Origin: Brevundimonas abyssalis TAR-001
Lineage (GTDB): Bacteria > Pseudomonadota > Alphaproteobacteria > Caulobacterales > Caulobacteraceae
DNA: 64,000 bases
Direction of reading: 5' to 3'
NCBI RefSeq assembly: GCF_000466985.1
Contig: NZ_BATC01000011.1
Location: 1 to 64,000 of the forward strand
The notes beneath the pieces are model-generated. The model searched no databases and had not been told where the DNA came from. It worked only from the letters and a program-made list of their open reading frames with translations. The stretch's first letter is position 1. Every line of letters begins with the position of its first letter. The position numbers were made by a program, and so were the translations under genes. Of this stretch, positions 22,463-41,240 are shown piece by piece.

Positions 22463-23340
22463 CTAGCCGCCCGCCATCAGATGCGCGAAGGCGGCCATGC
22501 CCTCCGGGTAGTCGCGCCAGCCTCGCGGGCCTTGAGAGCATCCACCCGCGCGGTCAGGTCGTCGGGCCCGAAGCCGTCGGGCAGCCACTGGGCCTCGCCC
22601 TCCACGCGGGCGGCGAGGCGCACGCCGCCGGCGCCCGTGGTGACGGTCTCGCCGGTCAGCGGACAGTCGGGCGACATGAGCCAGCTGGCCACGGGGGCGA
22701 CCCGCTCGGGGGACAGGCGGGCGGCCTGCTCGGGCGACAGGTATTCGCCGGTCATGCCGGTGTCGGCGAAAGGGGCGATGGCGTTGGCGGCGACGTTGCG
22801 GCTGGCCCCTTCCAGGGCGATGACGCGCATCAGGCCGATCAGGCCGGCCTTTGACGCCGAATACGCCGCCATGCCGTGAACCCCGTGCAGCCCGGCGGTG
22901 GACGTGGACACCAGAATCCGGCCGCCGCCCCTCTCGCGCATGTGCCTGTAGATGGGCAGGGTCGGAGTCAGGGTGCCGAAGAAATTGACCTCGAAATTGG
23001 CGCGGAATTCCTCGGCGGTCTGTTTGTGCAGGGTCGAGGCCTCGGGCGCGCCGGCGTTGTTCAGCAGGCCGTCGATGCGGCCGAAGGCGTCGAGCGCCGC
23101 CGCCAGCAGGCGCTCGCCGGAGTCCGCCTCCTCCACCGCTACGGGCGCGGCGACGGCGCGGCCGCCCCGGGCCTCGATCTCGGCCACCACAGCCTCGGCC
23201 GAGCCGGGCGCATCGGCGGGGCGGGGCCGGGTGTTGACCACCACCCGGGCGCCGCGCGCCGCCAGATCGAGGGCATAGGCGCGGCCAAGGCCCCTGCCCG
23301 CCCCGGTGACGACGATGACGCGATCCTTCAGGGCGCTCAT
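22463..23340 (-). CDS. Short-chain dehydrogenase, hydroxyacyl-CoA dehydrogenase-like (frame break near 22521)
   Basis: A reconstructed 292-residue SDR. It has the cofactor motif TGAGRGLG, the NNAG motif, and the catalytic Ser and YSASK. The start (RVIVVTGAGRGLGRAYALDLA) and the VVVNTRPRP region resemble the dehydrogenase part of MFE-2-type beta-oxidation enzymes. Near the end the frame breaks; adding one G in the GAGGCTGG segment yields EGWRDYPEGMAAFAHLMAGG and a stop at 22463. The ATG overlaps the stop of the DUF1295 gene. A role in oxidising a CoA-ester hydroxy group in the catabolic region is inferred. Confidence 0.8.
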
Positions 23341-24332
23341 GACGGTTTCCTCAGAGTGTCGGCGGCGCGGGCGCGCGGCCAGGGCAGGAAGCGGGGCGTG
23401 CGGGCGCAGTAGGCGGTCCAGGCTTCGCCGCGGGTGCGGGCCATGTGCGCCTCCTTGAACGGCGCGGCGGAAGCGTAGCCCATGAACCAGCCGGTGAAGA
23501 GCGGCGCGAACAGGGTGATCCAGCCCCACGGATGGGCCAGGGCGAACACGAACCACGCGGCCCACATCACCGTCTCGCCCAGATAGTTGGGATGCCGCAC
23601 CAAGGCCCACACCCCGGTGTCCAGCAGGCGGCCGCGGTTGGCGGTGTCCGCCTTGAAGGCCGCCAGTTGCCGGTCAGCGAGGGTCTGTAGCGTGAAGCCG
23701 CCCAGCCAGACGGCGACGCCCGCGATGGCGAAGCCCCAGCGGGTGGTCCCGGAAACACTCTCCGGGACGGTCAGGGCGAAGACGATGGGCGCCGACCACA
23801 GCCAGAGGGTCACGCCCTGAAGCAGGTGCACCTGAAAGGCGCTCCACCACAGCCATCGTGACCCGTGGCGGGCCCGCCAGTGGGCGTAGGGCTGGCGCTC
23901 GGCGCCCATGTTGTGGCCCCAGGTCTGGATGATCAGCCGCCCGGCCCCGATCACCAGAAACACTATGAGCAGCAGGTCGGGTCCTGTGAGCGCGCGCCCT
24001 GAAGCCGCCAGGGTCAGGACCGCCACGGCCGCCGCCGCAGCGGGATAGCAGATGTCCATGACGCCGTGATTCCGGGCCAGAGTTCCCCACAGCCAGGCCA
24101 CGGCCATCACGCCCAGCACCCCTGCCCCGCCAGGCAGAATCCAGATGTGGAGACTGTCGCGCAGGGCGGATTCCGGAGCGACCGCCGCCAGGCCGATGAA
24201 CGCCAGTGGTGCGGCGGCGAGGCCGTAGTGCCAGGCCCGCCCGCGCGTCCCCGCCGGGATCAGGGCCAGCCACAGGACAGCCATGGCCGCCCATAAAACG
24301 CCGACCACGCCCATGGATGAAATGTCCGTCAT
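23337..24332 (-). CDS. DUF1295-family membrane protein (steroid-reductase-like fold)
   Basis: A 331-residue polytopic membrane protein with at least eight hydrophobic segments. The C-terminal half contains LLDTGVWALVRHPNYLGE and WFMGYASA-type sequences characteristic of DUF1295, related to 3-oxo-5-alpha-steroid 4-dehydrogenases and isoprenylcysteine methyltransferase-like proteins. Such proteins are predicted NADPH-dependent reductases of lipids or steroids, but the activity is unproved. It is co-transcribed with the SDR (ATGA overlap) and divergent from a TonB receptor. Confidence 0.8.
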   Translation of the reverse strand: MTDISSMGVVGVLWAAMAVLWLALIPAGTRGRAWHYGLAAAPLAFIGLAAVAPESALRDSLHIWILPGGAGVLGVMAVAWLWGTLARNHGVMDICYPAAAAAVAVLTLAASGRALTGPDLLLIVFLVIGAGRLIIQTWGHNMGAERQPYAHWRARHGSRWLWWSAFQVHLLQGVTLWLWSAPIVFALTVPESVSGTTRWGFAIAGVAVWLGGFTLQTLADRQLAAFKADTANRGRLLDTGVWALVRHPNYLGETVMWAAWFVFALAHPWGWITLFAPLFTGWFMGYASAAPFKEAHMARTRGEAWTAYCARTPRFLPWPRARAADTLRKPS

Positions 24333-24347
24333 TCGTCGCCCTCAATC

Positions 24348-24357
24348 ACGCTTGCGT
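24348..24357. promoter_or_regulatory. ACGCTTGCGT element, copy 2, with a nearby half-similar site
   Basis: The exact element lies in the 109-base gap between the DUF1295 gene and the TonB receptor. A second palindrome, TAGCGCAAGCTA at 24383-24394, contains the reverse-complement core GCAAGC, so the promoter may hold two sites. It is the second of three identical copies, all in divergent promoters. Confidence 0.5.
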
Positions 24358-24441
24358 AAAAAGACTTGCAAAACTGGTTCATTAGCGCAAGCTACTCCTG
24401 CAACGAGCCCGTAAAGGGCCGAACACACCGGAGGGAATGTC

Positions 24442-26676
24442 TTGACCAGCATCAATATGCGCGGTTCGTCCTGGCGTCGGCGTCTGGCCGGCGTGTCGAC
24501 GGCGGCCCTGGCCGTGACGGCCGGATTCGCCGCCCCGGCCGTCGCGCAACAGACCGAGCAGGCCCAGCCGGGCTCTGTCACGCTCGACGAAATCATCATC
24601 ACCGCCCAGCGTCGGGAACAGGGCCTTCAGGAAGTGCCCATCGCCGTCACAGCCTTCAGTCAGGAGATGCTGGAGCGCACGGCCGCGACCGGTCTTCAGG
24701 ACGTCGCGGGCAAGGCCCCGGGCGTCACCATGACCCAGTTCAACGTTGGCGAGCCGCAGATCTTCGTGCGCGGCGTCGGCACCACCAGCGACTCCGCCGC
24801 CAGCGACCCGTCCATCGGCGTGTCCATCGACGAGGTCTCCATCGGCCGCGCGGGCGCCAGCGCCCTGGCCTTCATGGATGTGCAACGAGTGGAAATCCTG
24901 CGCGGGCCCCAGGGCACGCTGTATGGACGCAACGCCTCGGGCGGGGCGCTGAACGTCTATACGAACCGGCCTGACTTCGCGCCCTTCGGCCAGTTGACGG
25001 CCCGGTATGGCAGCTTCAACGAGATGGGCCTGGAAGGCGTGTTCAATGGCGAGATCGCCGAGGACACCGCGGGCCGTATCGCCTTCCGCTTCAGCACCAA
25101 CGACGGCTACGCCGAGAACGTGCTCACGGGCGCGGACCTGCATGGCGGGACGTCCTTCGGCCTGCGCGGCCAGGTTCTGCGCGAGGCCGGGAACTGGAGC
25201 TTCCTGGCAGGCTTCGACGGCAGCATGGAGGAGATGGACGGCCAGGCGCGCATTCCGGTCACCGTCGCCACGACCCCCGCGCCTTTCGTCGCCGTCATCA
25301 ACAACCTGCGCGCCGGCCTCGACATCCGCGAGACCCTGAACCCGGACGCCACCTATCAGAACCGCACCAACTGGGGCATCACCGGCCGGGCGGAATGGCA
25401 GGGCGACAATTTCGGCTTCGTATCCCTGACCTCCTATCGCGACAACGACTACGACTGGCGCGACAATCTGGGCGGCCTGACCTATCCGGCCTTCCCCCTG
25501 CGGGTGGACAATCGAGCCGAAGAACAGGCCGACCAGTTCAGCCAGGAGTTCCGCTTCGTTTCGGCGGCGGATTCCAACATCAACTGGGTGGCGGGCGTCT
25601 ATCTCTTCCGTGAGAACGTGGTCCGCACCGAGCGCTTCATTGTGGAGACCGCCCTGCCCATCGCCCCGCCCATTTTCGGCGGCGACACCACCTTCTTCCA
25701 GGATGCCACCAACACCAGCTATGCGGTGTTCGGTCAGGCGGCGATCCCCTTCGCGAGCATCTGGGAGCTGACCCTGGGCGCCCGCTGGACCCACGACGAG
25801 CGCGAAGTCCATCAGGTGGCTATCGACAACGACCTTGGTCTGAACGGGCCGCCGGGCATCCCCCTGGGACCGACGGGATCACCCTATGACGTCAGCGCCA
25901 GCACCACCTTCGAGGAGCCCACCTGGCGGGTCGCCCTGTCGGTGGAGCCCCTGCCGGACGTGCGCTTCTATGCGAGCTACGACCGGGGCTACAAGGCCGG
26001 CGCCTATATCAGCGCGGCCCAGACCGGCGCCCAGGCTGTGCAGCCGCTGAGCTCGGAACTGCTGGACAACTACGAGATCGGCGCCAAGACCACGGTGTTT
26101 GACGGACGGCTGCGCTTCAATGCGGCGGCGTTCCGGCTGGACTACACCGACCTGCAGGTCAATGAGCTGGCCGGACTGAACCTGGTCGCCTCCAACGCCC
26201 AGGCCGAGGTTGAGGGCTTCGAGATCGAGACGGCCCTGGCCGTCACCTCCGCCATCACCATCGGAGGATCGTACACCAGCCTGGACGCCCAGTTCACCTC
26301 GGACGCGATCTCGGCGGGCGGCACGCTGCCCTATGAGGGCAACATCCTGCCGCGTTCTCCGGAGAGCCAGTACACCCTCTACGCCGACGGTGAATGGCGT
26401 GTGGGGCAAGGCACCCTGGCCACGCGCATCGATTACCAATGGACGGACGACTACTTCTTTGACCCGTCCAACAACCCCGAGGTGCTGATCCCCTCCTACG
26501 GCCTGCTGAGCGCCTTCGCGTCCTGGGAGACGGACAACGGCTTCAAGGTGTCGGTCTACGGCAAAAACCTGACCGACGAGGAGTACCGCAACCACGTCAT
26601 CAAGAACGTGGGCGTCGGCTTCAGCGTGTTCGGGCCGCCGCGCTCGTTCGGCATCGCCTTGAGCCGTACGTTCTGA
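24442..26676 (+). CDS. TonB-dependent receptor
   Basis: A 744-residue outer-membrane receptor with signal sequence, TonB box region (DEIIITAQRREQGLQEVPIAV), plug domain and a beta-barrel ending in SFGIALSRTF with terminal Phe. It is of the smaller TonB receptor type common in Sphingomonadales and Caulobacterales for hydrophobic or aromatic substrates. TTG 24442 has GGAGGGA six bases upstream, and the nearby ATG at 24437 is out of frame. It is divergent from the DUF1295-SDR pair and probably imports the substrate of the catabolic region downstream. Confidence 0.88.
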   Translation: MTSINMRGSSWRRRLAGVSTAALAVTAGFAAPAVAQQTEQAQPGSVTLDEIIITAQRREQGLQEVPIAVTAFSQEMLERTAATGLQDVAGKAPGVTMTQFNVGEPQIFVRGVGTTSDSAASDPSIGVSIDEVSIGRAGASALAFMDVQRVEILRGPQGTLYGRNASGGALNVYTNRPDFAPFGQLTARYGSFNEMGLEGVFNGEIAEDTAGRIAFRFSTNDGYAENVLTGADLHGGTSFGLRGQVLREAGNWSFLAGFDGSMEEMDGQARIPVTVATTPAPFVAVINNLRAGLDIRETLNPDATYQNRTNWGITGRAEWQGDNFGFVSLTSYRDNDYDWRDNLGGLTYPAFPLRVDNRAEEQADQFSQEFRFVSAADSNINWVAGVYLFRENVVRTERFIVETALPIAPPIFGGDTTFFQDATNTSYAVFGQAAIPFASIWELTLGARWTHDEREVHQVAIDNDLGLNGPPGIPLGPTGSPYDVSASTTFEEPTWRVALSVEPLPDVRFYASYDRGYKAGAYISAAQTGAQAVQPLSSELLDNYEIGAKTTVFDGRLRFNAAAFRLDYTDLQVNELAGLNLVASNAQAEVEGFEIETALAVTSAITIGGSYTSLDAQFTSDAISAGGTLPYEGNILPRSPESQYTLYADGEWRVGQGTLATRIDYQWTDDYFFDPSNNPEVLIPSYGLLSAFASWETDNGFKVSVYGKNLTDEEYRNHVIKNVGVGFSVFGPPRSFGIALSRTF

Positions 26677-26698
26677 GGTCACATCGAGACTGAAACCA

Positions 26699-26732
26699 GG
26701 CCGTCGCCGCATCCCCGCGGCGGCGGCCTTTT
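26699..26732 (+). terminator. Rho-independent terminator
   Basis: GGCCGTCGCCGC (26699-26710) pairs with GCGGCGGCGGCC (26717-26728), with one G-T pair and a six-base loop, followed by TTTT. It terminates the TonB receptor transcript and separates it from the convergent HxlR gene. Confidence 0.85.
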
Positions 26733-26736
26733 CGCG

Positions 26737-27717
26737 TCAGGGGGCGCCGCCCTTAGGCGCGGCTTCACGCTCGACTTCCCAGCGCACCCGACGCGGGTCG
26801 ATGGCCCGGCCCGTCGACCGGTCGCAGACCACCGGCGAAAGAATCTCCCCCGTCGTCCTGCTCTTGAGCCGCAGGGGCGGGCTTTCATCCGGATACAGCC
26901 AGCGCTCGCTCCAGCCGTGCATGGCCAGAACGATGGGGTACATGTCGCGCCCGGCCTCGGTCAGGCGGTATTCGTAACGCACGGGCGCGTCCTGATAGGG
27001 TTTGCGCTCCAGCACCCCGTGCAGCACCAGACGCGACAGCCGGTCCGCCAGAATATTGGTGGCGACGCCCAGGGCGGCGTGAATCTCGTCAAAGCGACGC
27101 AGACGGAAATAGGCCGCCGACAGCACGGCCCAGCTCCAATAGTCGCCCATGATGTCGGTGGAGCGGTCGATGATGGGCCGGTCCGTCTCGATGGGCTGCG
27201 AGCGGCGTCTGCGCGAGGTCGGCGGGGCGATCGGCGTCATGGGCGCCGTGACCGCCCAGACCACATTGTCGATCCCCGCCGGGGTCCCATGCTCATAGCC
27301 CAGCACCACCGGCTCGAGCCGGTCTCCGGTCTGGCGGTCATAGAAGCGCAAGGCATAGCGCTCCTGCAGCGGCGAGCGGGCCCATTTCCGTTCCCACTGT
27401 CCCTGCATGACCGCCACGCCGAACATGTCCAGCCCCATGGCGGTGAGGCGGTACTCCAGCCTCGCCCCGCCTTCGGCCACAGGCCGGGTTTCGAGCATTC
27501 CGGCGGCCGTCAGGCGTTGCAGGCGGTCAGCCAGAACGCTGCGCGGCGCGCCGAGCTGATCGCGCCAGGCGCTGAAGCGGCGCACGCCGTAGAACGCCTC
27601 GCGCAGGATCAATTGGGTCCAGGCGTCGCCGGTGATGGCGAAGGCCCGCGCCACCGGATTGCCCATGATCAGGGCCCGCATGTCCGGCTCGTCCGCACGC
27701 TCTTCACTGGTCTGCAT
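26737..27717 (-). CDS. Tandem-domain HxlR-family regulator
   Basis: A 326-residue protein containing two HxlR-type winged-helix domains. The first (about 15-110) has GDAWTQLILREAFYGVRRFS, then VLADRLQRLTAAGMLE. The second (about 180-275) repeats the pattern with GDYWSWAVLSAAYFRLRRFD, then ILADRLSRLVLHGVLE. HxlR proteins are normally single domains of about 110-130 residues acting as dimers, so this is a fused pseudo-dimer. A linker (about 120-180) with an Arg-rich stretch separates them. It is divergent from the catabolic operon, across a promoter with ACGCTTGCGT, and is the likely local regulator. Confidence 0.85.
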   Translation of the reverse strand: MQTSEERADEPDMRALIMGNPVARAFAITGDAWTQLILREAFYGVRRFSAWRDQLGAPRSVLADRLQRLTAAGMLETRPVAEGGARLEYRLTAMGLDMFGVAVMQGQWERKWARSPLQERYALRFYDRQTGDRLEPVVLGYEHGTPAGIDNVVWAVTAPMTPIAPPTSRRRRSQPIETDRPIIDRSTDIMGDYWSWAVLSAAYFRLRRFDEIHAALGVATNILADRLSRLVLHGVLERKPYQDAPVRYEYRLTEAGRDMYPIVLAMHGWSERWLYPDESPPLRLKSRTTGEILSPVVCDRSTGRAIDPRRVRWEVEREAAPKGGAP

Positions 27718-27762
27718 ATCTCCCTCTACTCCAATTCGCGGCGGGGTCGAGGCGTGACGCCA

Positions 27763-27774
27763 ACGCTTGCGTTA
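27763..27774. promoter_or_regulatory. ACGCTTGCGT element, copy 3
   Basis: AACGCTTGCGTT has five-base inverted arms (AACGC/GCGTT) around TT, the most symmetric of the copies. It lies in the 109-base gap between the HxlR regulator and the carotenoid-oxygenase operon, a natural position for an operator of the HxlR protein; binding is inferred. Confidence 0.55.
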
Positions 27775-27826
27775 AGCGACCAAATGTCCGAAGGTCTGTT
27801 CTGAAAAGTTTCTGGAGGCAATTGCC

Positions 27827-29284
27827 ATGGCCGACGACGCCGCCGCCGCACGCCGTATCGAAACCGGGCCGCTGAGCCCGCTGAATACGCTCAACCCCTA
27901 TATCCAGGGCGCCTATGAGCCGGTCTCACGTGAGACCACGGCCATCGACCTGCCTGTGATCGGGGAAATCCCGCAGGATCTGCACGGCGCCTTCTATCGA
28001 AACGGGCCGAATCCCGCCCAGGCGCCCCAGGGCATGCACCACTGGTTCGACGGCGACGGCATGGTCCACGCCGTCTGGTTCGAGAACGGCAAGGCCGAGT
28101 ACCGCAACCGCTACGTCCGCTCGGCGGACCATGTGGCGGACCTCAACGGCGGCTGCGGCGCGGGCGGGGTGATGGAGCCCTCCACCCGCGCCGATCCGTC
28201 GTCCACGCGCGGCGACAAGGTCTACAAGGACACGGCCAACACCGATCTGGTGCTGCACAACGGGTCGCTGATGGCGCTGTGGTACATCTCGGGCCATCCG
28301 GTGCGCATCGACGCGCGGACCCTGGAGACCATCGGGACCGAGACCTTCGGCGGAGCCCTGTCGCGCCACGTCTCCGCCCACTCCAAGGTGGATCCGAAGA
28401 CCGGCGAGTTCGTGTTCTTCGACTATTCGCTCTACGAACCCTGGATGACCTTCGGCGTGGTCAGCCCGACCAATGAGCTGACCCATTTCGCCCGCGTCGA
28501 GCTGCCGGGACCGCGCCTGCCCCACGACATGGGTCTGACCGAGAACTACGTCATCCTGCACGACCTGCCGGTGGTGTTCACCGACGGCGGGCTGAAGCGC
28601 AGCACCTGGAACATCCATTTCGCCGACCAGCCGGCCCGCTTCGGCGTGGTCCCGCGCAACGGCTCGGGGGATCAGGTCCGCTGGTTCGAGACCGACAGCT
28701 GCTACATCTATCACGTGGTGAACGCCTGGGAGGACGGCGACGAGGTGGTCATGACCGCCTGCATGATGACGCCCAACGGCTTCCCGCCGAACCCGGAGTA
28801 CGGCCCCTACGCCGCCATGGTGAACGTGCTGGCCCTGCACGCCGTGCCGGTGGAATGGCGCATGAACATGAAGACCGGCGAGGTGAAGAAGCGCCAGCTG
28901 GACGACCGCATCGGCGAGTTCCCGGTGGTCAATCTGGACTATGCCTCGCGGCCCACGAAGTGGTCCTATCACGTGGCCATGGCGCCCAGGGAGCTGCAGA
29001 GCTTCAAGGGCCTCATCAAGTACGACCTCGAGACCGGCGCCGCGCGGACCTGGGACTACCAGCCGTCGCAGTTCGGCTCCGAGCCCGCCTTCGCCCCGCG
29101 CGTCGGCGCGACGGCCGAGGACGACGGCTATGTCATCGCCTTCGTGACCGACGCCGAGACCGGCAAGTCCGAGGTGCAGGTGATCGATGCGCAGAACATG
29201 GAGGCCGGGCCGGTGGCGCGGGTCATCCTGCCGGTGCGTGTGCCCGCGGGCTTCCATGGCACCTGGCGCGCGGCGACCAGCTGA
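27827..29284 (+). CDS. Carotenoid-oxygenase-family (lignostilbene dioxygenase-like) enzyme
   Basis: A 485-residue non-heme iron enzyme of the carotenoid cleavage oxygenase family. The four iron-binding His fit H185 (SAHSKVDP), H233 (LPHDMGLTENY), H296 (YIYHVVNAWEDGD) and H477 (PAGFHGTW). The YRNGPNP and HHWFDGDGMVH motifs are present. Bacterial members include lignostilbene/resveratrol cleavage oxygenases and isoeugenol monooxygenase, which cleave a C=C bond next to a phenol, giving aldehydes. A Lys at 134 could serve as a phenol-binding residue as in some stilbene oxygenases; this is inference. GGAGG lies eight bases before the ATG. First gene of the operon. Confidence 0.88.
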   Translation: MADDAAAARRIETGPLSPLNTLNPYIQGAYEPVSRETTAIDLPVIGEIPQDLHGAFYRNGPNPAQAPQGMHHWFDGDGMVHAVWFENGKAEYRNRYVRSADHVADLNGGCGAGGVMEPSTRADPSSTRGDKVYKDTANTDLVLHNGSLMALWYISGHPVRIDARTLETIGTETFGGALSRHVSAHSKVDPKTGEFVFFDYSLYEPWMTFGVVSPTNELTHFARVELPGPRLPHDMGLTENYVILHDLPVVFTDGGLKRSTWNIHFADQPARFGVVPRNGSGDQVRWFETDSCYIYHVVNAWEDGDEVVMTACMMTPNGFPPNPEYGPYAAMVNVLALHAVPVEWRMNMKTGEVKKRQLDDRIGEFPVVNLDYASRPTKWSYHVAMAPRELQSFKGLIKYDLETGAARTWDYQPSQFGSEPAFAPRVGATAEDDGYVIAFVTDAETGKSEVQVIDAQNMEAGPVARVILPVRVPAGFHGTWRAATS

Positions 29285-29298
29285 AGGCCGCCTGATTG

Positions 29299-30446
29299 AT
29301 GAACGCCTACATCCACGACGCCGTCCGCACGCCCCGCGCCAGGGCCCGCCCCGACGGCGGGCTGGCGGCGCTGAAGCCCCACGAACTGATCGGCGGACTG
29401 ATCGACGCCATCGAGACCCGCGGCCATGACGCCCGCGGAGCCGAGGCGCTGATCGTCGGCTGTGTCGGACAGGTTGGCGCCCAGGGCGCCAATGTGGCGC
29501 TGGTGTCCAAGCTGCACGCCGGCCTGCCGGACGAAACGGCGGCGTGGAGCATCAACAACTATTGCGTGTCGGGTCTGACCGCCATCGGACAGGCCGCCGA
29601 CATGGTCCAGACCGGCCGCGCCCGCTCGGTGCTGGCGGGCGGGGTCGAGATGATGTCGCGCGTGCCGTTCATGGGCGACCGCGCCGACTATTACGCCGAC
29701 GCGTCCTTCCCGGCCCGCACCCGCTATCTGCCGGTGGCCGTCGCCGCCGACCGGCTGGCCGAGGATGCGGGCGTGTCCCGAGCCGAGATGGATCAGGCGG
29801 CGCTGGTCTCCCAGTCCCGCACGGTCGACGCCGAAGGCGGCCCGCTGGTCGCCTCGCGCATCGCGCTGAACGGGCTGAACAGCGACGAATGCGCCCGGCC
29901 GACGACGCTGGAGAAACTGGGCAAGCTGCCCGCCGCCTTCGCCGAGATGGCCGCGCCCTATGCGGACGCCCTGGAAGGCCGGGCCATCGATCATCGACAC
30001 ACCGTGGCCCACGCCCCGCCCATGGCCGACGGCGCCGGGCTGACGCTGGTCTCGTCCGAGACCGAGGCGCCCGGGCGCGCATCGTGGCCCATGTGGAGGT
30101 CGGCGGCGATCCGGCCGCCTCCCTGACCGCAGGCTTCACCGCCATGGACCGGGTGCTGGAGCGGGCGGGCCTGACCCTGTCCGACATGGACCGCATCGAG
30201 TTCATGGAGGCCTTCGCCGTCACCATCGTCACCTTCCTGCGTGAGCGGGACGTGGATCCGGACAAGGTCAATGTAGGCGGCGGCCACCTGGCCAAGGGGC
30301 ACCCCATGGGGGCCACGGGCGCCATCCTGCTGTCGTCGCTGCTGGACGCGCTGGACGCGTGCGAGGGCCGCTATGGCCTGGTGGTCGCGGCGGGCGCGCA
30401 AGGAGTCGGCTCGGCCATGATCGTCGAGCGCATGGGAGGCCGCTGA
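29299..30446 (+). CDS. Thiolase-like protein with altered C-terminal active site (frame break near 30071)
   Basis: The reconstructed product is about 382 residues. It has the nucleophile Cys in NNYCVSG, an EFMEAFA block corresponding to NEAFA, and GGHLAKGHPMGATGA with the catalytic His. The second catalytic Cys, normally in a CxGxGxG motif, is replaced: the end reads VVAAGAQGVGSAMI. The enzyme may therefore act as a synthase or be non-thiolytic. The frame breaks at 30070-30072 in a CCC run; a fourth C restores EAPRARIVAHVEV. The gene starts 14 bases after the oxygenase, with ATG 29299 preferred over TTG 29296. Confidence 0.78.
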
Positions 30447-32124
30447 TGGACGCCCGCTCGCCCGCGCCCCGCGACGCCGTCGTGGCCCGTCACGCGGACC
30501 TGATCGAAAGCGCGCTGGACGCCATCCGCACCCGCCGCGCCTGGTCGCCGTTCAAGGACTCGCCCTCGACGAAGATCCACGGCCCGGACAAGCCGGTGGC
30601 CGGAAAGGCCGCCTTCGAGGCGCAGCTGGGCCAGCGGTTCGCGCTGGATCTGCCGGGCGTCACCGAGTGGGTCGGGGCCGAGGTCTCACCCTATACGCAG
30701 CAGCCGTTGGGCGTCACCTATCCGGTCAGCACGCCAGAGGCCCTGATCGCGGCGGCGCAGGCCGCCATGCCGGACTGGGCCGCCGTCTCGCCCGACCTGC
30801 GCGCGGCGCTATGCGTCGAGATGGCGGTGCGGCTCTACGACGTCAATTTCGAGATGGCCCACGGCGTCATGCACGTAGCGGGGCAAAGCTACACCCAGGC
30901 CTTCAGCGGCTCGGGGCCCAATGCGCTGGACCGGGGCATCGAGGCCCTGGCCTATGCGGTCAAGGCCATGCGCGACGTGGCGCCGAACGGCCGCTACGAG
31001 CGCGACTTCGCGGGCGAGCGGGTGGTTCTGGACAAGACCTATTCCATCGTCCCGCGCGGCGTCGGTCTGGTCATCTGTTGCGCCAGTTTCCCCACCTGGA
31101 ACGCCTATCCGGCCATGTTCGCCAGCCTCGCAACGGGCAACCCGGTGATCGTCAAGCCGCACCCCATCGCCGTGCTGCCCATGGCCATCGTGGTGCGCGA
31201 ATGCCGCCGGGTGCTGGCGGACCACGGCTTTGATCCCAACCTCGTCACCCTGGCCGTGGACACGCTTGAGGCGCCCGTGGCCCAGCATCTGGTGGACCAC
31301 CCGGCGGTGCAGATCGTCGATTTCACCGGCAGCCCCCGCTACGGCGGCCATCTGGAGCGCACGGTGACCGGCAAGCTGCTGTTCACCGAGACAGCGGGGG
31401 TCAACACCGTGGTGGTGGAGTCCGCCGGGGACATGGACGCCGCCGCCCGCGCCATCGCCCGCGCCTCGTGCCTGTTCTCGGCCCAGATGTGCACCAGCCC
31501 GCAGGTGATCTATGTGCGCCCGGATCTCGCCGACGCCTTCGGGCAGGCGCTGGTGGAGCAGATCGACGCCATCGCCGGCGATCCGGCGCTGGCCGCAGGG
31601 ATCATGGGTGCCATCCAGGGCGCGGTCAGCCTGAAGGCCGTGGCTGATGTGCGCGCCGCCCTCGACCAGCATCCGAAGGCCCGCGTGCTGCGCGAGGCCG
31701 CGCCCTACGTCCACCCGCAGTTCCCCGAGGCGCGCACCCTGACGCCGCTGGTGGTCGCGGTCGACGGGTCAGACCCCGCCCTCTACGCCGAGGAACATTT
31801 CGGCCGGTGCTGTTCGTCGTGCGCATGGACGGCGATGCGGCGGTGGCCGAGGCGACCCGGCTGGCCCGCGAACATGGCTCGATCTCGTCCTATCTGTACT
31901 CCACCGACGAGGCCTTCATCGACCGCGCGACGCCGCTGTACGAGCAGGCGGGCGCCAATCTGACCGTCAATCTGACCGGCGCCATGTGGATCAATTTCGC
32001 AGCCGCCTACAGCGACTATCATGTCTCGGGGCTGAACCCGGCGGGCAACGCCTGTCTGGCCGACCTCGCCTTCGTCGCCTCCCGCTTCCGCATCGTCCAG
32101 CGGCGTCGCCCGGCGGCGGCATGA
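30446..32124 (+). CDS. PaaN-like aldehyde dehydrogenase (frame break near 31804)
   Basis: A reconstructed 559-residue aldehyde dehydrogenase resembling the PaaN group (phenylacetate degradation, related to the PaaZ dehydrogenase half). The catalytic Cys is C349 in FSAQMCTSPQ and the general-base Glu is E315 in FTETAG. The cofactor region is IVKPHPIAVLPMA. It probably oxidises the aldehyde product of the upstream oxygenase or a CoA-linked semialdehyde. The frame breaks in GGCCGGTG at 31804; one more C gives EEHFGPVLFVVRMDG. The ATG overlaps the thiolase stop by one base. Confidence 0.82.
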
Positions 32125-33347
32125 CAGCGGATGTCTTCATCGCCGGGGTCGGCATGACGGCGCTGGGCAAGCGGCTGGATCAGAGCGTCAAATCACTGAC
32201 CGCCAAGGCGGTGCAGGCCGCCCTGACCGACGCGGGCGCGGAAACCGCCCACATCCAGGCCGCCTGGTTCGCCAATACGCGCCAGCCCATGCTGGAGGGC
32301 CAGAACACCGTGCGCGGCCAGATCGCCCTGCGTCCGCTGGGCCTGACCGGCATCCCGGTGATCAACGTTGAAAACGCCTGCGCCTCGGGCTCCACCGCCC
32401 TGTGGCTGGCCATGCAGTGGCTGCGGTCGGGCGCCGGCGACATCGCCCTGGTCGCAGGGGCCGAGAAGATGGTCTGGCCCGACCGCCCGGAGCGGGTGGC
32501 TGCGGCCTTTGCGGGCGGGACAGACATCCACGACCGCGACGGCGTGCTGGCCTACATCCGCGAGATGGGCGGCGAGGAGCCGGGCGAGGGCCGCAGCCTG
32601 TTCATGGATCTGTACGCCGCCCAGGCTCGCGCCCACATGGCCCGGCACGGCACGACCCAGGCCGACTTCGCCCATGCGGCGGCCAAGAACCACGCGGCGG
32701 GCGCCCTGAACCCGCTGGCCCAATACCGCACCCCCATGACCGCGGAGCAGGTGCTGGCCGACAAGCCTATTGTCTTCCCCTTCACCCGCGCCATGTGCGC
32801 GCCCGTCAGCGACGGGGCGGCGGCCATGGTGGTGTGCAACAGGGCCGGGCTGAAGCGGCTCGGCGCCGCCGCGCGGGCCGTGCGGGTGCGAGGCTGCGCC
32901 CTCGTCAGCGCCTCGGCGCGCGAGGCGGCGGACATGGACAACCACATCGGCCGTCGCGCGGCGCTGGCGGCCTGGGAGCAGGCCGGCGTCGGACCGGACG
33001 ACATCGACGCGGTGGAGGTCCACGACGCCACCAGCTACGCCGAAATCCAGCAGATCGAGAACCTGGGTCTGGCCCGGCCGGGGACCGCGGGCGAGCGGCT
33101 GCGGCGGGGGGACTTCGCCCTGGGCGGCCGCACCCCGGTCAACGCCTCGGGCGGTCTGGTGGCCAAGGGCCATCCGGTGGGCGCCACGGGCATCATCCAG
33201 CTGCACGACCTGACCCGCCAGCTGCGGGGCGAGGCCGGGGCGGCCCAGATCGAGGGCGCGCGCATGGCCGCGGCCGAGAACGGCGGCGGCTTTCTGGGCG
33301 TCGAGGAGGCGGCCACCGTGGTCACTGTTCTGGAGCGCGCCGCATGA
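32121..33347 (+). CDS. SCP2-type thiolase / acetyl-CoA acetyltransferase
   Basis: A 408-residue thiolase-superfamily protein of the SCP-x group. The nucleophile Cys is in ENACASGSTA, an HDATSY block stands where HDAF is usual, and GGLVAKGHPVGATG carries the catalytic His. SCP2-type thiolases shorten branched, steroid-like or aromatic acyl-CoA chains. ATG 32121 overlaps the PaaN-like stop, and its own stop overlaps the next ATG, so translation is coupled along the operon. The ATG at 32121 is preferred over the longer upstream frame that overlaps PaaN. Confidence 0.87.
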   Translation: MTADVFIAGVGMTALGKRLDQSVKSLTAKAVQAALTDAGAETAHIQAAWFANTRQPMLEGQNTVRGQIALRPLGLTGIPVINVENACASGSTALWLAMQWLRSGAGDIALVAGAEKMVWPDRPERVAAAFAGGTDIHDRDGVLAYIREMGGEEPGEGRSLFMDLYAAQARAHMARHGTTQADFAHAAAKNHAAGALNPLAQYRTPMTAEQVLADKPIVFPFTRAMCAPVSDGAAAMVVCNRAGLKRLGAAARAVRVRGCALVSASAREAADMDNHIGRRAALAAWEQAGVGPDDIDAVEVHDATSYAEIQQIENLGLARPGTAGERLRRGDFALGGRTPVNASGGLVAKGHPVGATGIIQLHDLTRQLRGEAGAAQIEGARMAAAENGGGFLGVEEAATVVTVLERAA

Positions 33348-34810
33348 ACCCGGTCGGCGTGATCTATGACGGCTGGCGCGCGCGGGCCGACCGCCCTGCC
33401 CTGATCGACGGCGACCGGATCGTCACCCATGGCGAGCTCATCGCGCGAGTGGACGCCCTGGCTGCCGACCTCCACCGCCGGGGGCTGGACCGGGGCCGCC
33501 GCATCGGTCTGTGCGCGGCCAACAGCTGGCGTCATGTGGTCGCCTATCTGGCCATCCTGCGCGCGGGCGCCGTCTGGGTTCCGCTGAACCCCCGCAACGG
33601 CCCCGGCCTGAACGCGGACCTCCAGCGCCGCGCCGAGCTGGACATGCTGTTCGTCGATCAGCCCTCGCGGGAGCAGATCGCGCCCTGCGCCCGCCGTCTG
33701 GAGCTGGAAAACTGGGTCGACGCGGTCGAGCCCGGCTCGCCACCCGCCATCGACCACGACCCGGACGGCGTCTTCGCTATCAAGTTCACGGGCGGCTCGA
33801 CCGGCAAGCCCAAGGGCGTGGTGCAGAGCCGGCGCAGCGCCATGGCGGCCCTGCGGTCCATGCAGGCCTATTACGGCTTCACCGCCGACGATGTGAATCT
33901 GGCGGTCGCGCCCCTGACCCACGGCTCGTCCCACTATGTGCTGCCGGTGCTGGCGGTGGGCGGGGCCCATGTGCTGATGGCCCAGCCGGACCGGGCGGCC
34001 ATGCTGGACGAACTGAAGCACCGGGTCACCGTGGCCTTCATGCCGCCGACCCTGATCTATCTGCTGATGGAGGAGGCCGCTTTCGGGCCGGGGGACTTCA
34101 CGGCCCTGCGCCACCTGACCTGGTCCGCCGCCCCCATGCCGCCTGCCCGCATCGAACAGGCGGTCGCGCGCTTCGGCCCGGTGCTGGGCGCCCTGTTCGG
34201 TCAGACCGAGGCGCCCATGACCATCGCCGCCCTGACGCCTGAACAGGTGGCGCGGCCGGAGCTGCGCGGCGCCGCAGGCTATCCCTTCCCCGACACGCCC
34301 GTCCGCGTGCTGACCGCCGGGGGCGATGTGGCGGACCAGGGCGAGGGCGAGATCCTGGTGGGCGGCGATCTGGCCGACACCGCCTATCTGGACGATCCAG
34401 ACGCCACGGACGAGGCCCGCCAGGACGGCTGGCTCAGGACCGGCGATCTGGGACGGCTGGAAGCCGACGGCCTGCTGACCATTCTCGGCCGGTCGCGCGA
34501 GATGATCATCTCGGGCGGGTACAACATCTATCCCGCCGAGGTGGAGGCGGCCCTGGGCGCCCATCCGGCGGTGCGCGAGGCCTGCGCCTTCGGCGTGGAG
34601 GACCCGGTGTGGGGCGAACGGCTGGAGGCCGCCGTGGCCTACGATCCCGCCCTTGCCGACGAGGCCGCCCTCATCGACCATGTGCGCCGGACCATCGGCC
34701 CGGTGCGCACCCCCAAGACGCTGCATCCGCTGGCCGCCCTGCCCCGCAATCCGGTGGGCAAGGTGGTGCGCGGGGATGTGAGAACCCTGATCTACCCGGC
34801 GCCTCAATGA
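33344..34810 (+). CDS. AMP-forming acyl-CoA ligase 1
   Basis: A 488-residue adenylate-forming enzyme. The phosphate-binding loop is FTGGSTGKPKG, the hinge motif is LRTGDLGRLEADG, and the C-terminal lid has GGYNIYPAEVEAA with the catalytic Lys in LPRNPVGKV. It would activate a carboxylic acid as CoA thioester. It shows no long extension and no membrane segment. It overlaps the SCP2 thiolase by ATGA and precedes a second ligase by 34 bases. Substrate is unknown; an aromatic or terpenoid acid is suggested by context. Confidence 0.9.
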   Translation: MNPVGVIYDGWRARADRPALIDGDRIVTHGELIARVDALAADLHRRGLDRGRRIGLCAANSWRHVVAYLAILRAGAVWVPLNPRNGPGLNADLQRRAELDMLFVDQPSREQIAPCARRLELENWVDAVEPGSPPAIDHDPDGVFAIKFTGGSTGKPKGVVQSRRSAMAALRSMQAYYGFTADDVNLAVAPLTHGSSHYVLPVLAVGGAHVLMAQPDRAAMLDELKHRVTVAFMPPTLIYLLMEEAAFGPGDFTALRHLTWSAAPMPPARIEQAVARFGPVLGALFGQTEAPMTIAALTPEQVARPELRGAAGYPFPDTPVRVLTAGGDVADQGEGEILVGGDLADTAYLDDPDATDEARQDGWLRTGDLGRLEADGLLTILGRSREMIISGGYNIYPAEVEAALGAHPAVREACAFGVEDPVWGERLEAAVAYDPALADEAALIDHVRRTIGPVRTPKTLHPLAALPRNPVGKVVRGDVRTLIYPAPQ

Positions 34811-34844
34811 CCGGGAGACAAAACGAGAGACGGAGGAAAACGCC

Positions 34845-36559
34845 ATGATCGTCGTGCCGCAGGATCGCATACGCGACTACCGCGCAAAGGCTGGTGGGGT
34901 GACGACACCCTGGACGACCTGTTCCGCCGCCATCTGAAGGCTCATCCCGATGCCGAGGCCCTGATCGATCCGTTCAACGCCGCCGACATCATGGGCGGCC
35001 AGCCGGAGCGCCTGACCTGGGCCGAGGCGGACGCGTCGGTCGACCGGCTGGCGGCGGTGTTCCATGCCCACGGCCTGAAGAAGGACGACGTGCTGGTCGT
35101 CCAGCTGCCCAACATCAATGACCTGAGCCTGACCTATCTGGCGGCGGCGCGGCTGGGGATCATCGTCTCGCCCGCCCCGGTGCAATACCGCGAGAGCGAG
35201 TTGGGCTACATCGTCGGCAAGACCGACGCCGTGGCCGCCCTGACCACCGACCGCATCGGCAAGCACGCTCACGGCGACATGCTGATGACCGTGGCCGGCC
35301 GCTCGCCCGCCCTGAAGCATGTGTTCGTCATGGGCGAGACCTGCCCCGCCGGCGCCATCGATCTGGAGCCGCTGCTGGACGCGGTGACGCCGAAACAGAT
35401 GAAGGCCGCCCGCGACGCCATGAAGACGGCGAAGATCAGCGCCGACGACGTCTTCACCATCTGCTGGACCTCCGGCACCGAGGCCCAGCCCAAGGGGGTG
35501 CCGCGCAGCCACAACGAGTGGATCATCATGGGCGCGGGGGTGGTGGACGCCGCCGACCTGGGCCATGGCGCGCGCATCCTGAATCCGTTTCCCATGGTCA
35601 ACATGGCGGGAATCTCCACCGGCTTCGTCAGCTGGCTGCTGACCGGAGGGGTGCTGATCCAGCACCACCCGTTCGACCTGCAGGTGCTGCTGAAGCAGAT
35701 GCGCGACGAGACCATCGACTACACCGTCGCCCCGCCCGCCGTGCTGAACCTGCTGCTGCAGAACGAGGCCCTGCTGGCGGGCATCGACTTCAAGCGGCTG
35801 AAGGCCATCGGCTCCGGCTCGGCGCCCCTGTCGCCGTGGATGGTCAAGACCTTCCACGAGAAATACGGCGTCCAGATCGTCAACTATTTCGGCTCCAACG
35901 AGGGCTGTTCGTTCCCCAGCGCCTGGCAGGACGTGCCCGACCCGGCGGAGCGGGCCGTGCTGTTCCCGCGCTTCGGCGAGGGCCTGCGCTGGAAAGCCAT
36001 GCTGCACGACCGCATCTCCACCCGTCTGGTGGACCCCGAGACCGAGGAGGAGATCCGCGAACCCGGCCGTCCCGGCGAGCTGCGCATGAAGGGGGCGACG
36101 GTGTTCTCGGGCTACTGGCGCGCGCCGGAGGTCAATGAGCGGGCGTTCGACGCCGACGGCTGGTTCCGCTCCGGCGACCTGTTCGAGCTGGCGGGCGAGG
36201 ACAACCGCTTCATCCGCTTCGTGGGCCGGCTGAAGGACATCATCATCCGCGGCGGCATGAACATCTCGTCCGAGGAGATCGAGGGCCACCTGATGGGCCA
36301 CCCCGCCATCGCCGAGGCCGCCGTTGTGGGCGCGCCCGACGAGCGGCTGGGCGAGCGCCTGTGCGCCTTCGTGGTGTTCCGCCCCGACCAGAGCGCCGAC
36401 ATGGCCGGGATCAACCGCTATCTGACTGAAGAGAAACAGGTGGCCGTCTACAAACAGATCGAGCGGCTGGAGATCATCGACGCCCTGCCGCGCAACCCGG
36501 TCGGCAAGGTCCTCAAACGGGATCTGCGCGACCGTCTTGGAGAAACAGCTCAAGCATGA
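34845..36559 (+). CDS. AMP-forming acyl-CoA ligase 2 (frame break near 34889)
   Basis: A reconstructed 571-residue CoA ligase with phosphate loop TSGTEAQPKGVPRSH, a GSNEGC motif, hinge FRSGDLFELAGEDN, and lid GGMNISSEEIEGHL plus LPRNPVGKVLK. GGAGG is close before ATG 34845. Only 15 codons in, the frame breaks at GCAAAGGCTGG; one more G (AAAGGGC) gives YRAKGWWGDDTLDDLFRRHL, a normal ligase N-terminus. It differs clearly from ligase 1, so two different acids or pathway steps are likely. Its stop overlaps the next ATG. Confidence 0.85.
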
Positions 36560-37498
36560 GTTCCGCCTTCCCCCAGTCCATGCGGCTGCCCGTCATCGCC
36601 GCGCCCATGTTCCTGGTCTCCGGGCCGGAGCTGGTCATCGCCGCCTGCAAGGCGGGGATCGGCGGCGCGTTCCCGACGCCCAACTGTCGGACGCCGAGGA
36701 TCTGGACCGCTGGATGGACCAGATCACAAGCGCGCTTAAGCCCGGCGACGGGCCGTGGATCGCCAATCTGATCACCCACTCCACCAACCCCAGGCTGGCC
36801 GACGACCTGGCCATGGTGGCGCGCTACAAGCCGCCCATCGTCATCACCGCCCTGGGGTCGCCCAAGCCGGTGATGGAGACGGTCAAGGGCTACGGCGGCA
36901 TGGTCTTCGCCGACGTGGTCAACATGAAGCTGGCCCGAAAGGCCGCCGAGGCGGGCGTGGATGGTCTGGCCTGCATCAGCGCGGGGGCGGGCGGGCACAC
37001 CGGCCACCTGTCGCCCTTCGCCTTCGTCTCGGCGGTGCGCGAGTTCTTCGACGGCTATCTGACCATCGGCGGCGGCATCGCCGACGGCGCGGGGGTGGCG
37101 GGCGCCATCGCGGCGGGGGCGGACATGGTCTACATGGGCACCCGGTTCCTGGCCACGCGCGAGAGCCTGGCCCAGGACGCCTACAAGCAGATGGTGGTGG
37201 ACTGCGACGCCGACGACCTGATCGTCTCGCCCGCCGTCACCGGCACCGACGCCTCCTGGCTCAAGCCCAGCCTCAAGGCCGCGGGCCTCGACCCCGACGC
37301 CATGGGCGGCGCCATCCAGCGCGACTATTCCGGCGGCCAGAGCACCAAACGCTGGAAGGACATCTGGGCCGCCGGCCAGGGCGTGGGCCGCATCGAGCTG
37401 TGGAGTCCACCGCCGAGGTGGTGGCGCGGCTGGAGCGCGAATACCGCGCGGCGGCCGACCGCTTCATCCGACTGAACAGCCGGGCGGCGGCGGCGTGA
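36556..37498 (+). CDS. Nitronate monooxygenase-like flavoenzyme (two frame breaks)
   Basis: A reconstructed 314-residue TIM-barrel FMN enzyme of the nitronate monooxygenase / 2-nitropropane dioxygenase family. Key segments are VIAAPMFLVSGPELVIAACK, SAGAGGHTGHLSPFAF, GGGIADGAGVAGAIAAGADMVYMGTRF. Frames break near 36692 (GGACGCC needs a C) and near 37397 (GAGCTG needs a G), each restoring the expected frame. In related catabolic operons such proteins act as NADH:flavin oxidoreductases or CoA-ester hydroxylases (for example IpdC of steroid degradation), so nitronate may not be the substrate. Both ends overlap neighbouring genes. Confidence 0.8.
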
Positions 37499-37971
37499 GC
37501 GAGCCGTCCCCGTCCCTCGCCTCGCGCTTCCAGCTGGACCCGGCCGCCGACGGGCTCGAGCTGGCGCGGCGCTGGGCCGAGGCGCGTTTCGCGGGGGGCT
37601 TCGCCGAGCGGCTGCGCGCCTGGCCGGTCCAGGTGGAGCGGGGCCGCATGGTGATCCGCTGCGATCTGGATCCCGGTCACGCCAATTTCGTCGGACTGGT
37701 CCACGGCGGGGTGACGGCGGCGCTGGTGGACATCGCCGGGGGCGGGGTGGCCATGACCCTGCTGAAGCCGGGGGAGCACCTGCTGTCGACTGATCTAAGT
37801 CTGCGCTTCCTGAACGCGGCTCCCATCGAGGCGGATCATCTGATCGCCGAGGCGCGCGCCGCCTATGCCGACCCGCGCAAGGTGGTGACCGAGGTGACGG
37901 TGTCCTTGCCCGACGGCCGCGCGGTGGCCCACGGCACCGCCGCCGTCTCGATCCGAAGGCGCGAGAACTAG
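37495..37971 (+). CDS. PaaI-like hotdog thioesterase
   Basis: A 158-residue hotdog-fold protein with the core FVGLVHGGVTAALVDIAGGG, the HGG motif and following acidic residue of PaaI-type thioesterases. These release CoA from aromatic or dead-end acyl-CoA intermediates. The GTG start overlaps the upstream stop. It is the last gene of the operon; its TAG overlaps the stop of the convergent thiolase by two bases. A scavenging role, freeing CoA trapped by non-metabolised ring-CoA esters, fits the context. Confidence 0.85.
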   Translation: MSEPSPSLASRFQLDPAADGLELARRWAEARFAGGFAERLRAWPVQVERGRMVIRCDLDPGHANFVGLVHGGVTAALVDIAGGGVAMTLLKPGEHLLSTDLSLRFLNAAPIEADHLIAEARAAYADPRKVVTEVTVSLPDGRAVAHGTAAVSIRRREN

Positions 37972-39185
37972 ACGCCGATCACAAGGCTGACGGTGGTGGT
38001 GGTCGACCCGCCGATGTTCAGGGTCTGGACGGTGCTGGCGCCCTCAACCTGATAGGCCCCCGCCGTCCCCGTCGTCTGCTTGAACGCGTCCAGGGCCATG
38101 CGCACGCCCGTCGCGCCCACCGGGTGGCCGCAGCCTATCAGGCCGCCGGAGGGGTTGATGGGCAGCCGCCCGCCGATCTCGATATCCCCCGCCTCAATGG
38201 CCTTCCACGCCTCGCCCGGCGCGGTCAGGCCCAGATGGTCGATGGCCATGTATTCGGTCATGGAGAAACAGTCGTGGGTCTCCACCGCATCGATGGAGTC
38301 CAATGACATTCCGGCCCGTGCGCGGGCCTCGTCGATGGCGCGCTTCACCTGCGGGAAGACGTAAGCCTCATCGGCGCTGGCGGCGATCTTGCGGGCGTAG
38401 CTGATGGGCGCGTTGCGATGGCCCCAGCCCTTGATGCGCGGCAGGGACTCCAGCGCGATCCCGCGGCGGCGTGCGTAGTCCGCCGCCCGCTCGGCCGAGG
38501 CCAGAACCACCATGGCGCCGCCGTCGGTCACCTGACCGCAGTCAGTCTTGCGCACCCGCCCCTCGATCACCGGATTGGCCTCGTCGTCATTGGCGAAGGC
38601 CGCGTCGGGGAAGACATACTCCCGGGTCTGGGCGTTGGGATTCAGCCGGGCGTTGGCGAAATTGATCTGGGCGATGCGTCGCAGGTGCGCCTCGTTGATG
38701 CCGTAGCGGCGGTCGTATTCCTCGGTCAGGTCAGAAAAGGCGCGCGGCCAGACATAGCGCGCATCCTGATACTCGTGGCCCGCCCAGGCCGCGGCACCCA
38801 GATGCTCGGCCGCCGTCTGGCCCGGAACATTGCGCATCAGCTCCAGCCCCAGCACGGCGGCGGTTCCGTAGCGGCCGGACTCGATGTCCGCCATGGCCGC
38901 CAGGATGGCCAGCGAGCCCGAGGCGCAGGCCCCCTCGTGGCGCGAGGCCGGCATGCCGTCGAACCGCTGGTCTGACAGGGCGAAGAAGCCGCCCAGCATG
39001 CCTTGGCCCGCGAACAGGTCGCCGACGAAATTGCCCACATGGCCCACGTCGATGTCGCCGGGCTCCAGTTCCGTCGCCTCCAGCCCGCCGGTCAGGGTTT
39101 CGGCGAACCCGTCGGCGATCTCCATGCCCTCGCGGACCCAGTTGCGCTTGAAGTCCGACTGCCAGCCGCCGAGAATATAGACCAT
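37968..39185 (-). CDS. Thiolase-family acetyltransferase (SCP2-like) 2
   Basis: A 405-residue thiolase-superfamily enzyme with nucleophile Cys in EGACASGSLAI, HDCFSMTEYMA corresponding to the HDAF block, and GGLIGCGHPVGATG with the catalytic His. It lacks the second C-terminal Cys of type II thiolases, as is usual in SCP2-like proteins. ATG 39183-39185 has GGAG nine bases upstream; the longer frame from 39224 was not used. It sits four bases downstream of the feruloyl-CoA-synthase-like gene, so acid activation and thiolysis are co-expressed. Confidence 0.86.
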   Translation of the reverse strand: MVYILGGWQSDFKRNWVREGMEIADGFAETLTGGLEATELEPGDIDVGHVGNFVGDLFAGQGMLGGFFALSDQRFDGMPASRHEGACASGSLAILAAMADIESGRYGTAAVLGLELMRNVPGQTAAEHLGAAAWAGHEYQDARYVWPRAFSDLTEEYDRRYGINEAHLRRIAQINFANARLNPNAQTREYVFPDAAFANDDEANPVIEGRVRKTDCGQVTDGGAMVVLASAERAADYARRRGIALESLPRIKGWGHRNAPISYARKIAASADEAYVFPQVKRAIDEARARAGMSLDSIDAVETHDCFSMTEYMAIDHLGLTAPGEAWKAIEAGDIEIGGRLPINPSGGLIGCGHPVGATGVRMALDAFKQTTGTAGAYQVEGASTVQTLNIGGSTTTTVSLVIGV

Positions 39186-39189
39186 CGGA

Positions 39190-41064: not shown

Positions 41065-41170
41065 GGACGTTTCCCTGCTTCTCTTTGGTCTGCTTATGCA
41101 ACCAAGCTAACACAGGGGCGCGGGGGCGCAACAATCTGTCGCGCCGGAGCGGGCGGCTATCCTCACCCCA

Positions 41171-41182
41171 TTACTTGCGTAA
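41171..41182. promoter_or_regulatory. Variant of the ACGCTTGCGT element
   Basis: TTACTTGCGTAA, with TTAC/GTAA arms and the CTTGCGTAA half shared with the exact copies, lies in the 176-base gap between the feruloyl-CoA synthase-like gene and the second oxygenase gene. It is imperfect on the left arm, so a weak or related site is proposed. Confidence 0.35.
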
Positions 41183-41240
41183 GCAGACCATCGAGTCCTA
41201 TGGTCCTCGCACGTCGCGTTCGCGCCCGAGGAGCCGCACC

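Follow-up and report, generated by a model that had tools for sequence, protein, structure and literature searches.

A tandem HxlR regulator with two unlike winged-helix halves and a candidate asymmetric operator in a carotenoid-oxygenase gene cluster of Brevundimonas

The window analyzed here is a stretch of 64,000 nucleotides from Brevundimonas abyssalis TAR-001 (contig NZ_BATC01000011.1, positions 1 to 64,000, forward strand). The draft genome, 86% complete, totals 2.98 Mb over 128 contigs. An open reading frame on the minus strand (26737..27717, ATG start) encodes a regulator of 326 residues, on which the Pfam HxlR model PF01638 matched two stretches (122.2 bits; cut-off 20.8). The TetR family was absent from its Pfam matches up to E = 1. 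The regulator is surrounded by a gene cluster that spans about 22–43 kb of the window. According to the domain scan, SDR and DUF1295 proteins are encoded on the minus strand (22477..24332) and a TonB-dependent receptor on the plus strand (24442..26676). On the other side of the regulator, the plus strand carries carotenoid oxygenase 1 of the RPE65 family (27827..29284; PF03055, 439 bits). It is followed by genes for a thiolase, a PaaN-like dehydrogenase, an SCPx thiolase, ligases including CoA ligase B, and a nitronate monooxygenase (29296..37475, plus strand), which probably lie downstream of the oxygenase 1 promoter (P2) and may be co-transcribed. SCPx thiolase 2 and ligase C were assigned to the minus strand (37968..41064), and carotenoid oxygenase 2, with a start picked by eye, to the plus strand (41241..42721). 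The SDR–DUF1295 pair, the TonB receptor, both oxygenases, and SCPx thiolase 2 with ligase C belong to the predicted regulon. The NCBIfam apocarotenoid and lignostilbene dioxygenase models matched the oxygenases below their cut-offs. A ligase-like ORF was observed at about 33342–34810. The thiolase (29296–30446) and the PaaN-like dehydrogenase (30359–32124) are each split over two frames in the window, and in a near relative (L005) each is encoded by one uninterrupted frame, of 383 and 625 residues, respectively; the breaks are due to either an assembly error or decay.

The sequence-only reading had proposed that the regulator consists of two fused winged-helix halves, and our results bear this out. 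BLASTP aligned the N-half with the C-half at 35% identity across 141 residues (E = 2e-25). The local alignment of the halves scored 211 against a best value of 54 in 1000 shuffles, which rules out a chance origin of the repeat. The repeat described earlier is present, but its extent had been drawn too short: the repeat unit in each half is a winged helix together with its β-tail. The N-half (residues 20–157; 27247..27660, minus strand), delimited by Pfam, alignment, AlphaFold2, and fold match, has the recognition helix PRSVLADRL. The C-half (residues 183–316; 26770..27171, minus strand), delimited by Pfam, sequence match, and AlphaFold2, has the recognition helix ATNILADRL. They are joined by an Arg-rich linker, PPTSRRRR (residues 165–182; 27172..27225, minus strand), identified from the orthologue alignment and from the low model confidence at residues 168–187. 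The AlphaFold2 model, calculated with 16 aligned sequences, reached a mean pLDDT of 78.0 and a pTM of 0.78, with values under 50 for residues 168–187. The order of helices and strands was identical in the two halves, so that neither half lacked the winged helix. The best PDB fold matches were the HxlR structures PA1607 (2f2e) and PA1374 (4gcv). Structural matches with a compact range fell mostly on the N-half, and the fold of the C-half rests on the element order and on sequence (residues 181–293 against 2f2e, E = 4.7e-20).

The only Cys residue of the protein is C298 in the C-terminal tail, which rules out an N-terminal redox-Cys switch; the N-terminal sensing Cys found in the Cys-based HypR, YodB, and HxlR sensors is absent. 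A Cys-rich tail is common among tandem and single-domain relatives. The clade of the window protein has lost those Cys residues and retains only C298.

A contig search found the regulator encoded on 15 related contigs with 65–94% identity. Twelve are titled Brevundimonas, and the rest Caulobacteraceae, Alphaproteobacteria, and Bordetella. The contig titled Bordetella sp. (L008) matches the Brevundimonas loci in gene order and at 70–84% identity, and is possibly a mis-binned metagenome contig. The two domains per chain were kept in all 16 aligned orthologues, and the linker PPTSRRRR was invariant among them (16/16). The protein is therefore an HxlR by domain, not a canonical HxlR homodimer with a single domain per chain. 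In a sample of 101 genomes of the genus, 17 matched the regulator at E ≤ 1e-30 and 14 contained an orthologue (≥64% identity). Seven genomes carried a different relative of tandem length (34–37% identity), four of them together with an orthologue, and two HxlR domains were seen in six of these seven.

For the class and the phylum, the query was a profile built from 13 diverse tandem proteins, and the own genome is counted in both samples. With five candidates scored per genome, matches covering both halves were present in at least 10 of 385 genomes of the class and at least 12 of 398 genomes of the phylum, where one split match (G742) was also found; two of the 12 phylum genomes lie outside the class. 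Any profile match was given by 79 class and 112 phylum genomes, so most of these carry half-length matches only. On plasmids, 17 of 18 matching records covered at least 80% of the tandem query. The hosts of the plasmid tandem proteins were Rhizobium, Sinorhizobium, Agrobacterium, Aminobacter, and Cupriavidus, and the annotation, where given, was helix-turn-helix protein. The relatives in the genus, the class, the phylum, and on plasmids rule out that the fusion is unique to this genome. The search for further tandem HxlR proteins suggested in the sequence-only reading thus showed that the architecture recurs in other Pseudomonadota. By sequence, no solved tandem structure was found, all 16 PDB sequences matching the tandem profile having at most 168 residues. 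Among the matches listed from the open-licence PubMed Central literature, we recognized no paper on natural tandem HxlR proteins.

The halves of the window protein, with their 35% identity and differing recognition helices, are as unlike as a single-chain pseudo-dimer with distinct heads would have them. R59 in the N-half recognition helix was found in 12 of 13 diverse tandem proteins, and N221 in the C-half recognition helix in all 13. In a wider set of 37 tandem proteins, the N of the C-half motif was present in 33, missing in L142, L204, and L206, and unread in L137. A basic linker with RR or RKR was present in 34 of the 37, judged on the last 30 residues printed (exceptions L038, L137, and L142). 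In a tree of the halves, the N halves of the window clade formed one clade and the C halves another, and L041, from another family, fell inside both groups; the tree gave no resolution between one and several fusion origins of the tandem proteins.

Around the regulator, gene order varies among the orthologous loci, and much of the gene set remains together. We compared 31 tandem loci, some sharing a genome or region (L032/L033, L046/L047, L128/L129), three coming from the window clade and two being 4.3-kb contigs, with 22 controls made up of 20 single-HxlR matches hand-picked from longer lists and two earlier loci: a carotenoid oxygenase lay within the fetched stretch in 19 tandem loci and in no control (Fisher p = 1.3e-6). 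The corresponding counts were 16 versus 0 for SCPx thiolase, 14 versus 0 for the TonB receptor, and 15 versus 1 for ligase. Nitronate monooxygenase, with 13 versus 7, is not specific; homologues were seen near single-domain HxlR genes in seven of the 22 control loci (L144–L163, L044, L045). One locus fetched as possibly tandem (L143) was excluded from the neighbor and matrix comparisons. On the Cupriavidus plasmids, the tandem HxlR gene is surrounded by carotenoid oxygenase, ligase, nitronate monooxygenase, and thiolase genes. On two rhizobial plasmids, xanthine-dehydrogenase-type and lactonase genes adjoin it; on an Aminobacter plasmid, ABC-transporter genes adjoin it and a xanthine-dehydrogenase/lactonase-type set follows further on. 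The genes observed on these last three plasmids (L202, L203, L205) were of the xanthine-dehydrogenase type, the N-acyl homoserine lactonase family, CO-dehydrogenase subunit G, and the branched-chain amino acid ABC type, a pathway unlike the carotenoid-oxygenase one.

Side-by-side reading of the intergenic regions yielded the pattern CTTGCGYTARNRNACC. It describes a 16-bp element without palindromic symmetry, CTTGCG-YNAR-NNNACC, which occurs at three divergent promoters within the cluster, namely those of the TonB receptor (P1), carotenoid oxygenase 1 (P2), and ligase C/carotenoid oxygenase 2 (P3). At P1, candidate operator unit a, CTTGCGTAAAAAGACT, lies 18 bp before the DUF1295 start (24351..24366, plus strand; matrix score 22.6), and candidate unit b, CTTGCGCTAATGAACC, lies 50 bp before the TonB start (24376..24391, minus strand; pattern and matrix). 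Units a and b are convergent and 9 bp apart, in the window as well as in the orthologues. A description of P1 as three half-sites was replaced by these two convergent 16-bp units on the basis of the matrix and the spacing. The candidate unit of P2, CTTGCGTTAAGCGACC, is located between the HxlR and carotenoid oxygenase 1 genes (27766..27781, plus strand; pattern and matrix). A possible weak inverted second arm of P2 was seen by eye under the matrix cut-off (27793..27808, minus strand), at a position that fits the inverted arm scored at 11 bp in P2 of three other loci (L006, L008, L014). P3 contains a candidate unit before carotenoid oxygenase 2, CTTGCGTAAGCAGACC (41174..41189, plus strand; pattern and matrix), and a weak unit before ligase C, GTTGCATAAGCAGACC (41087..41102, minus strand), whose matrix score of 12.2 is near background. 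The units lie 45–51 bp ahead of the starts of both oxygenases and the TonB receptor. A second conserved element, CTTGCAAANCAGGATTTATC, was noted upstream of HxlR in five loci (L009, L010, L013, L016, L017); it resembles the TTTGCAAGTC core of P1.

Canonical HxlR homodimers usually have a palindromic operator. Read backwards, the units scored −10 to −24, compared with 20 to 27 forwards. The candidate unit is therefore not a palindrome, and we rejected its reading as a symmetric operator. That the two halves could read an asymmetric operator had been suggested in the sequence-only reading; the element at 27763 that it named holds the 27766–27781 unit of a motif that tracks the tandem HxlR genes, and the comparison supports the suggestion as far as sequence can.

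At up to one mismatch, CTTGCGYTARNRNACC had three matches in the window (chance mean 0.06) and three in the whole own genome, all at the three cluster promoters. The backwards control gave 10 matches in the own genome, so it is not the count that is enriched but the placement at three divergent promoters. A wider exact pattern gave three matches in the own genome against none in the control. In the genus, it matched 37 times in 13 of the 14 genomes with an orthologue and 24 times in 21 of the 87 others. A long P1 element was present in 11 of the 101 genus genomes, all among the 14 with an orthologue and none among the 87 others (p = 2e-12), a test confounded by co-inheritance of the cluster. 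In other Brevundimonas loci, the promoters of both carotenoid oxygenases and of the TonB receptor carry sites too, even when the regulator gene is elsewhere.

We then scored loci with a matrix built from 19 distinct sites of the window clade. In the window, it found the P1 pair, P2, P3, and the weak unit at 41102 on the minus strand; the reversed sequence gave seven matches in 531 kb at that cut-off. At scores of at least 16, a cut-off set after the scores were seen, 22 places were found in 15 of 28 other tandem loci and none in the remaining 13, at least four of the 22 (L032, L037, L047) being in genomes that also carry a window-clade protein. The 22 single-HxlR loci gave one match, the reversed tandem loci two, and column-shuffled matrices a mean of 1.5 and a maximum of 6. 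The counts were 28 tandem versus 3 single (reversed 8) at 14 or above, and 14 versus 1 (reversed 2) at 18 or above. Below 16, the separation was poor; in L125–L143, scores of at least 11.5 gave 26 matches versus 16 in the reversed sequence.

Carotenoid-oxygenase loci were compared in the same way, using 29 fetched loci besides the window, drawn from 43 matching genomes. A site scoring at least 15, again a cut-off set after inspection of the scores, was present in three of six loci from tandem-carrying genomes versus none of 23 others (p = 0.0055), the absence of a tandem gene in these 23 being based on full scoring in 13 and on up to five scored candidates in the other 10. Two of the three sites (G434, G101) precede a nitronate-monooxygenase gene beside HxlR, not the oxygenase directly. 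Without the training genome G256, the comparison was two of five versus none of 23 (p = 0.026). Two genomes (G284, G377) have 64%-identical carotenoid oxygenases with neither the motif nor a tandem HxlR, all candidates having been scored.

The variant CTTCAAYATRTGAACY, in which one half-site is changed, matched four times (up to two mismatches) in each of two Cupriavidus plasmids and not at all in the control; ahead of the search, it had been read by eye from one gap, in which each plasmid has two of its four sites, and the plasmids are alike there. All of its matches lie in gaps by the tandem HxlR, nitronate monooxygenase, and thiolase genes. The rhizobial and Aminobacter loci had only weak sites (11.1–13.6, near background). 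A relaxed framework upstream of the HxlR genes was weakly associated with the tandem form (13/37 tandem versus 2/23 single, with L143 counted as single; p = 0.03). As a comparative signal, the nonpalindromic motif is strong in the own-genome, matrix, and Cupriavidus comparisons, and its assignment as a candidate operator appears well supported.

These data also bear on whether the 16-bp element could be recognized by another regulator or by the transcription machinery, with the tandem HxlR as a mere passenger of the cluster. The motif and the regulator are inherited together, TTGCGT could act as a −35 box, and the domain scan covered part of the cluster ORFs. On the other hand, the motif or its half-changed variant adjoins tandem HxlR genes across different gene clusters and bacterial classes, and it is nearly absent around single HxlR genes. 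Conservation extends over the bases that would separate the promoter boxes, but not over the would-be −10 box. The cluster proteins covered by the domain scan include no second regulator. We regard the passenger model as very unlikely.

With the above results in hand, we propose that the regulator is a single-chain HxlR pseudo-dimer whose unlike halves would occupy one 16-bp asymmetric unit and control the cluster, most likely repressing it until a pathway compound binds. We consider this reading probable, though well short of secure. Centered on YNAR, the motif CTTGCG-YNAR-NNNACC forms a quasi-dyad whose two arms differ and have their centers about 10 bp apart. In DNA-bound HxlR, the recognition helices are 34.8 Å apart (PMC7835342), or about 10 bp. 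This spacing approximates the distance of the arm centers, from which we infer that a single chain may serve as its own dimer and cover one unit. The two winged-helix halves would then sit side by side, each recognition helix reading a different half-site about 10 bp from the other. The covalent pseudo-dimer of the sequence-only reading fits the size of the motif; as to the packing of the halves, which is inferred, a pTM of 0.78 is compatible with it. The Arg-rich linker may, speculatively, cross the AT-rich center.

The convergent P1 pair and the inverted P2 arm at three loci suggest that two chains may cooperate. The same arrangements would suit a model in which the N halves of two tandem chains pair with each other, as do their C halves, in the manner of ordinary HxlR dimers, placing four heads on paired units with the 16-bp unit as half of the operator. 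Mce3R, the double-TetR precedent, is also a homodimer (PMC11667970). P3 and many other sites, however, consist of one strong unit without a scoring partner, and contacts between like halves would leave the unlike arms within each unit unexplained. Such a four-headed assembly seems to us distinctly unlikely.

Under the preferred single-chain reading, the predicted regulon would comprise uptake, cleavage, and CoA-degradation functions. The units before both oxygenases and the TonB receptor, and the one between HxlR and oxygenase 1, point to control of this regulon and probably of the regulator's own gene. Their position 45–51 bp before three start codons makes repression, with release upon binding of a pathway compound, the first choice; activation is a live rival. 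In the activator model, the ligand-bound protein would recruit RNA polymerase, by analogy with B. subtilis HxlR, which is an activator that formaldehyde switches on (PMC7835342). A sigma-70 consensus scan of 24300–28000, not modelled on Caulobacterales promoters, found no promoter, which could mean that the promoters are weak. The positions of the units, including the one 18 bp before DUF1295, better fit an overlap with the core promoter, and we judge activation unlikely.

The nearest precedent, and the system that the tandem HxlR would work most like, is Mce3R. It likewise has two related DNA-binding units in one chain. Its two unlike HTHs lie on a nonpalindromic operator, as the halves of the tandem HxlR would, and the cluster that it controls includes its own gene, as is probable here. 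It differs in its TetR fold, its 25-bp sites, and its unrelated sequence family (PMC11667970). B. subtilis HxlR (7bzd/7bze/7bzg) shares the winged-helix domain, and the distance between its DNA-bound helices suits the 16-bp unit, but it is a single-domain, homodimeric activator (PMC7835342), and its Cys11–Lys13 formaldehyde switch is absent from the tandem protein. The same paper describes an engineered HxlR-cpYFP-HxlR chain that functions as a sensor, so HxlR tolerates being joined. PA1607 and PA1374 of Pseudomonas aeruginosa, the closest solved structures by sequence and fold, match the winged helix and much of the tail but have one domain per chain. The immunity repressor of mycobacteriophage TipsytheTRex is a monomer with two linked domains on an asymmetric DNA sequence, as the proposed pseudo-dimer would be; its domains are unrelated and its role is in phage immunity (PMC9283540).

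The Cupriavidus plasmids allow a guess at which half reads which arm. There, the left arm has CTTCAA in place of CTTGCG and the C-half helix PYIL in place of TNIL; the N-half retains its R/K, and the right arm is kept as well. From this joint difference, a single comparison, the left arm would be the one read by the C-half, an assignment that stays speculative. Taken together, the data permit a broader reading, which we offer tentatively and as open to considerable doubt. Tandem HxlR proteins would be natural single-chain heterologous pseudo-dimers found throughout the Pseudomonadota, with a half-site code of its own for each helix. CTTGC[G/A] would be the target of the C-half (TNIL), and the ACC/ACT side that of the N-half (R/K at 59), each separately changeable, as in Cupriavidus, where PYIL goes with CTTCAA and ACC is kept. 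At the AT-rich center, the conserved Arg linker would hold on to the DNA by its minor groove. Of the members examined, most (19 of 31 loci) stand beside carotenoid-oxygenase genes, and a rhizobial branch would have been recruited to a cluster of the molybdenum-hydroxylase type.

Among winged-helix repressors, homodimers bound to palindromes are the usual form. A natural fused pair with diverged halves offers a way to study how a dimeric repressor escapes symmetry, and candidate operators from several classes are lined up for half-site swaps. The analysis also supplies a regulator and a map of the predicted regulon for a recurrent gene set of carotenoid oxygenase, SCPx thiolase, and nitronate monooxygenase, a set for which no description was found among the matches listed from open-licence PubMed Central.

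Some genomes carry more than one tandem gene. Two different tandem HxlR genes lie about 8–9 kb apart in one cluster in L126 (G715) and L132 (G817), and G021, G052, and G064 each have two tandem HxlR genes on one contig.
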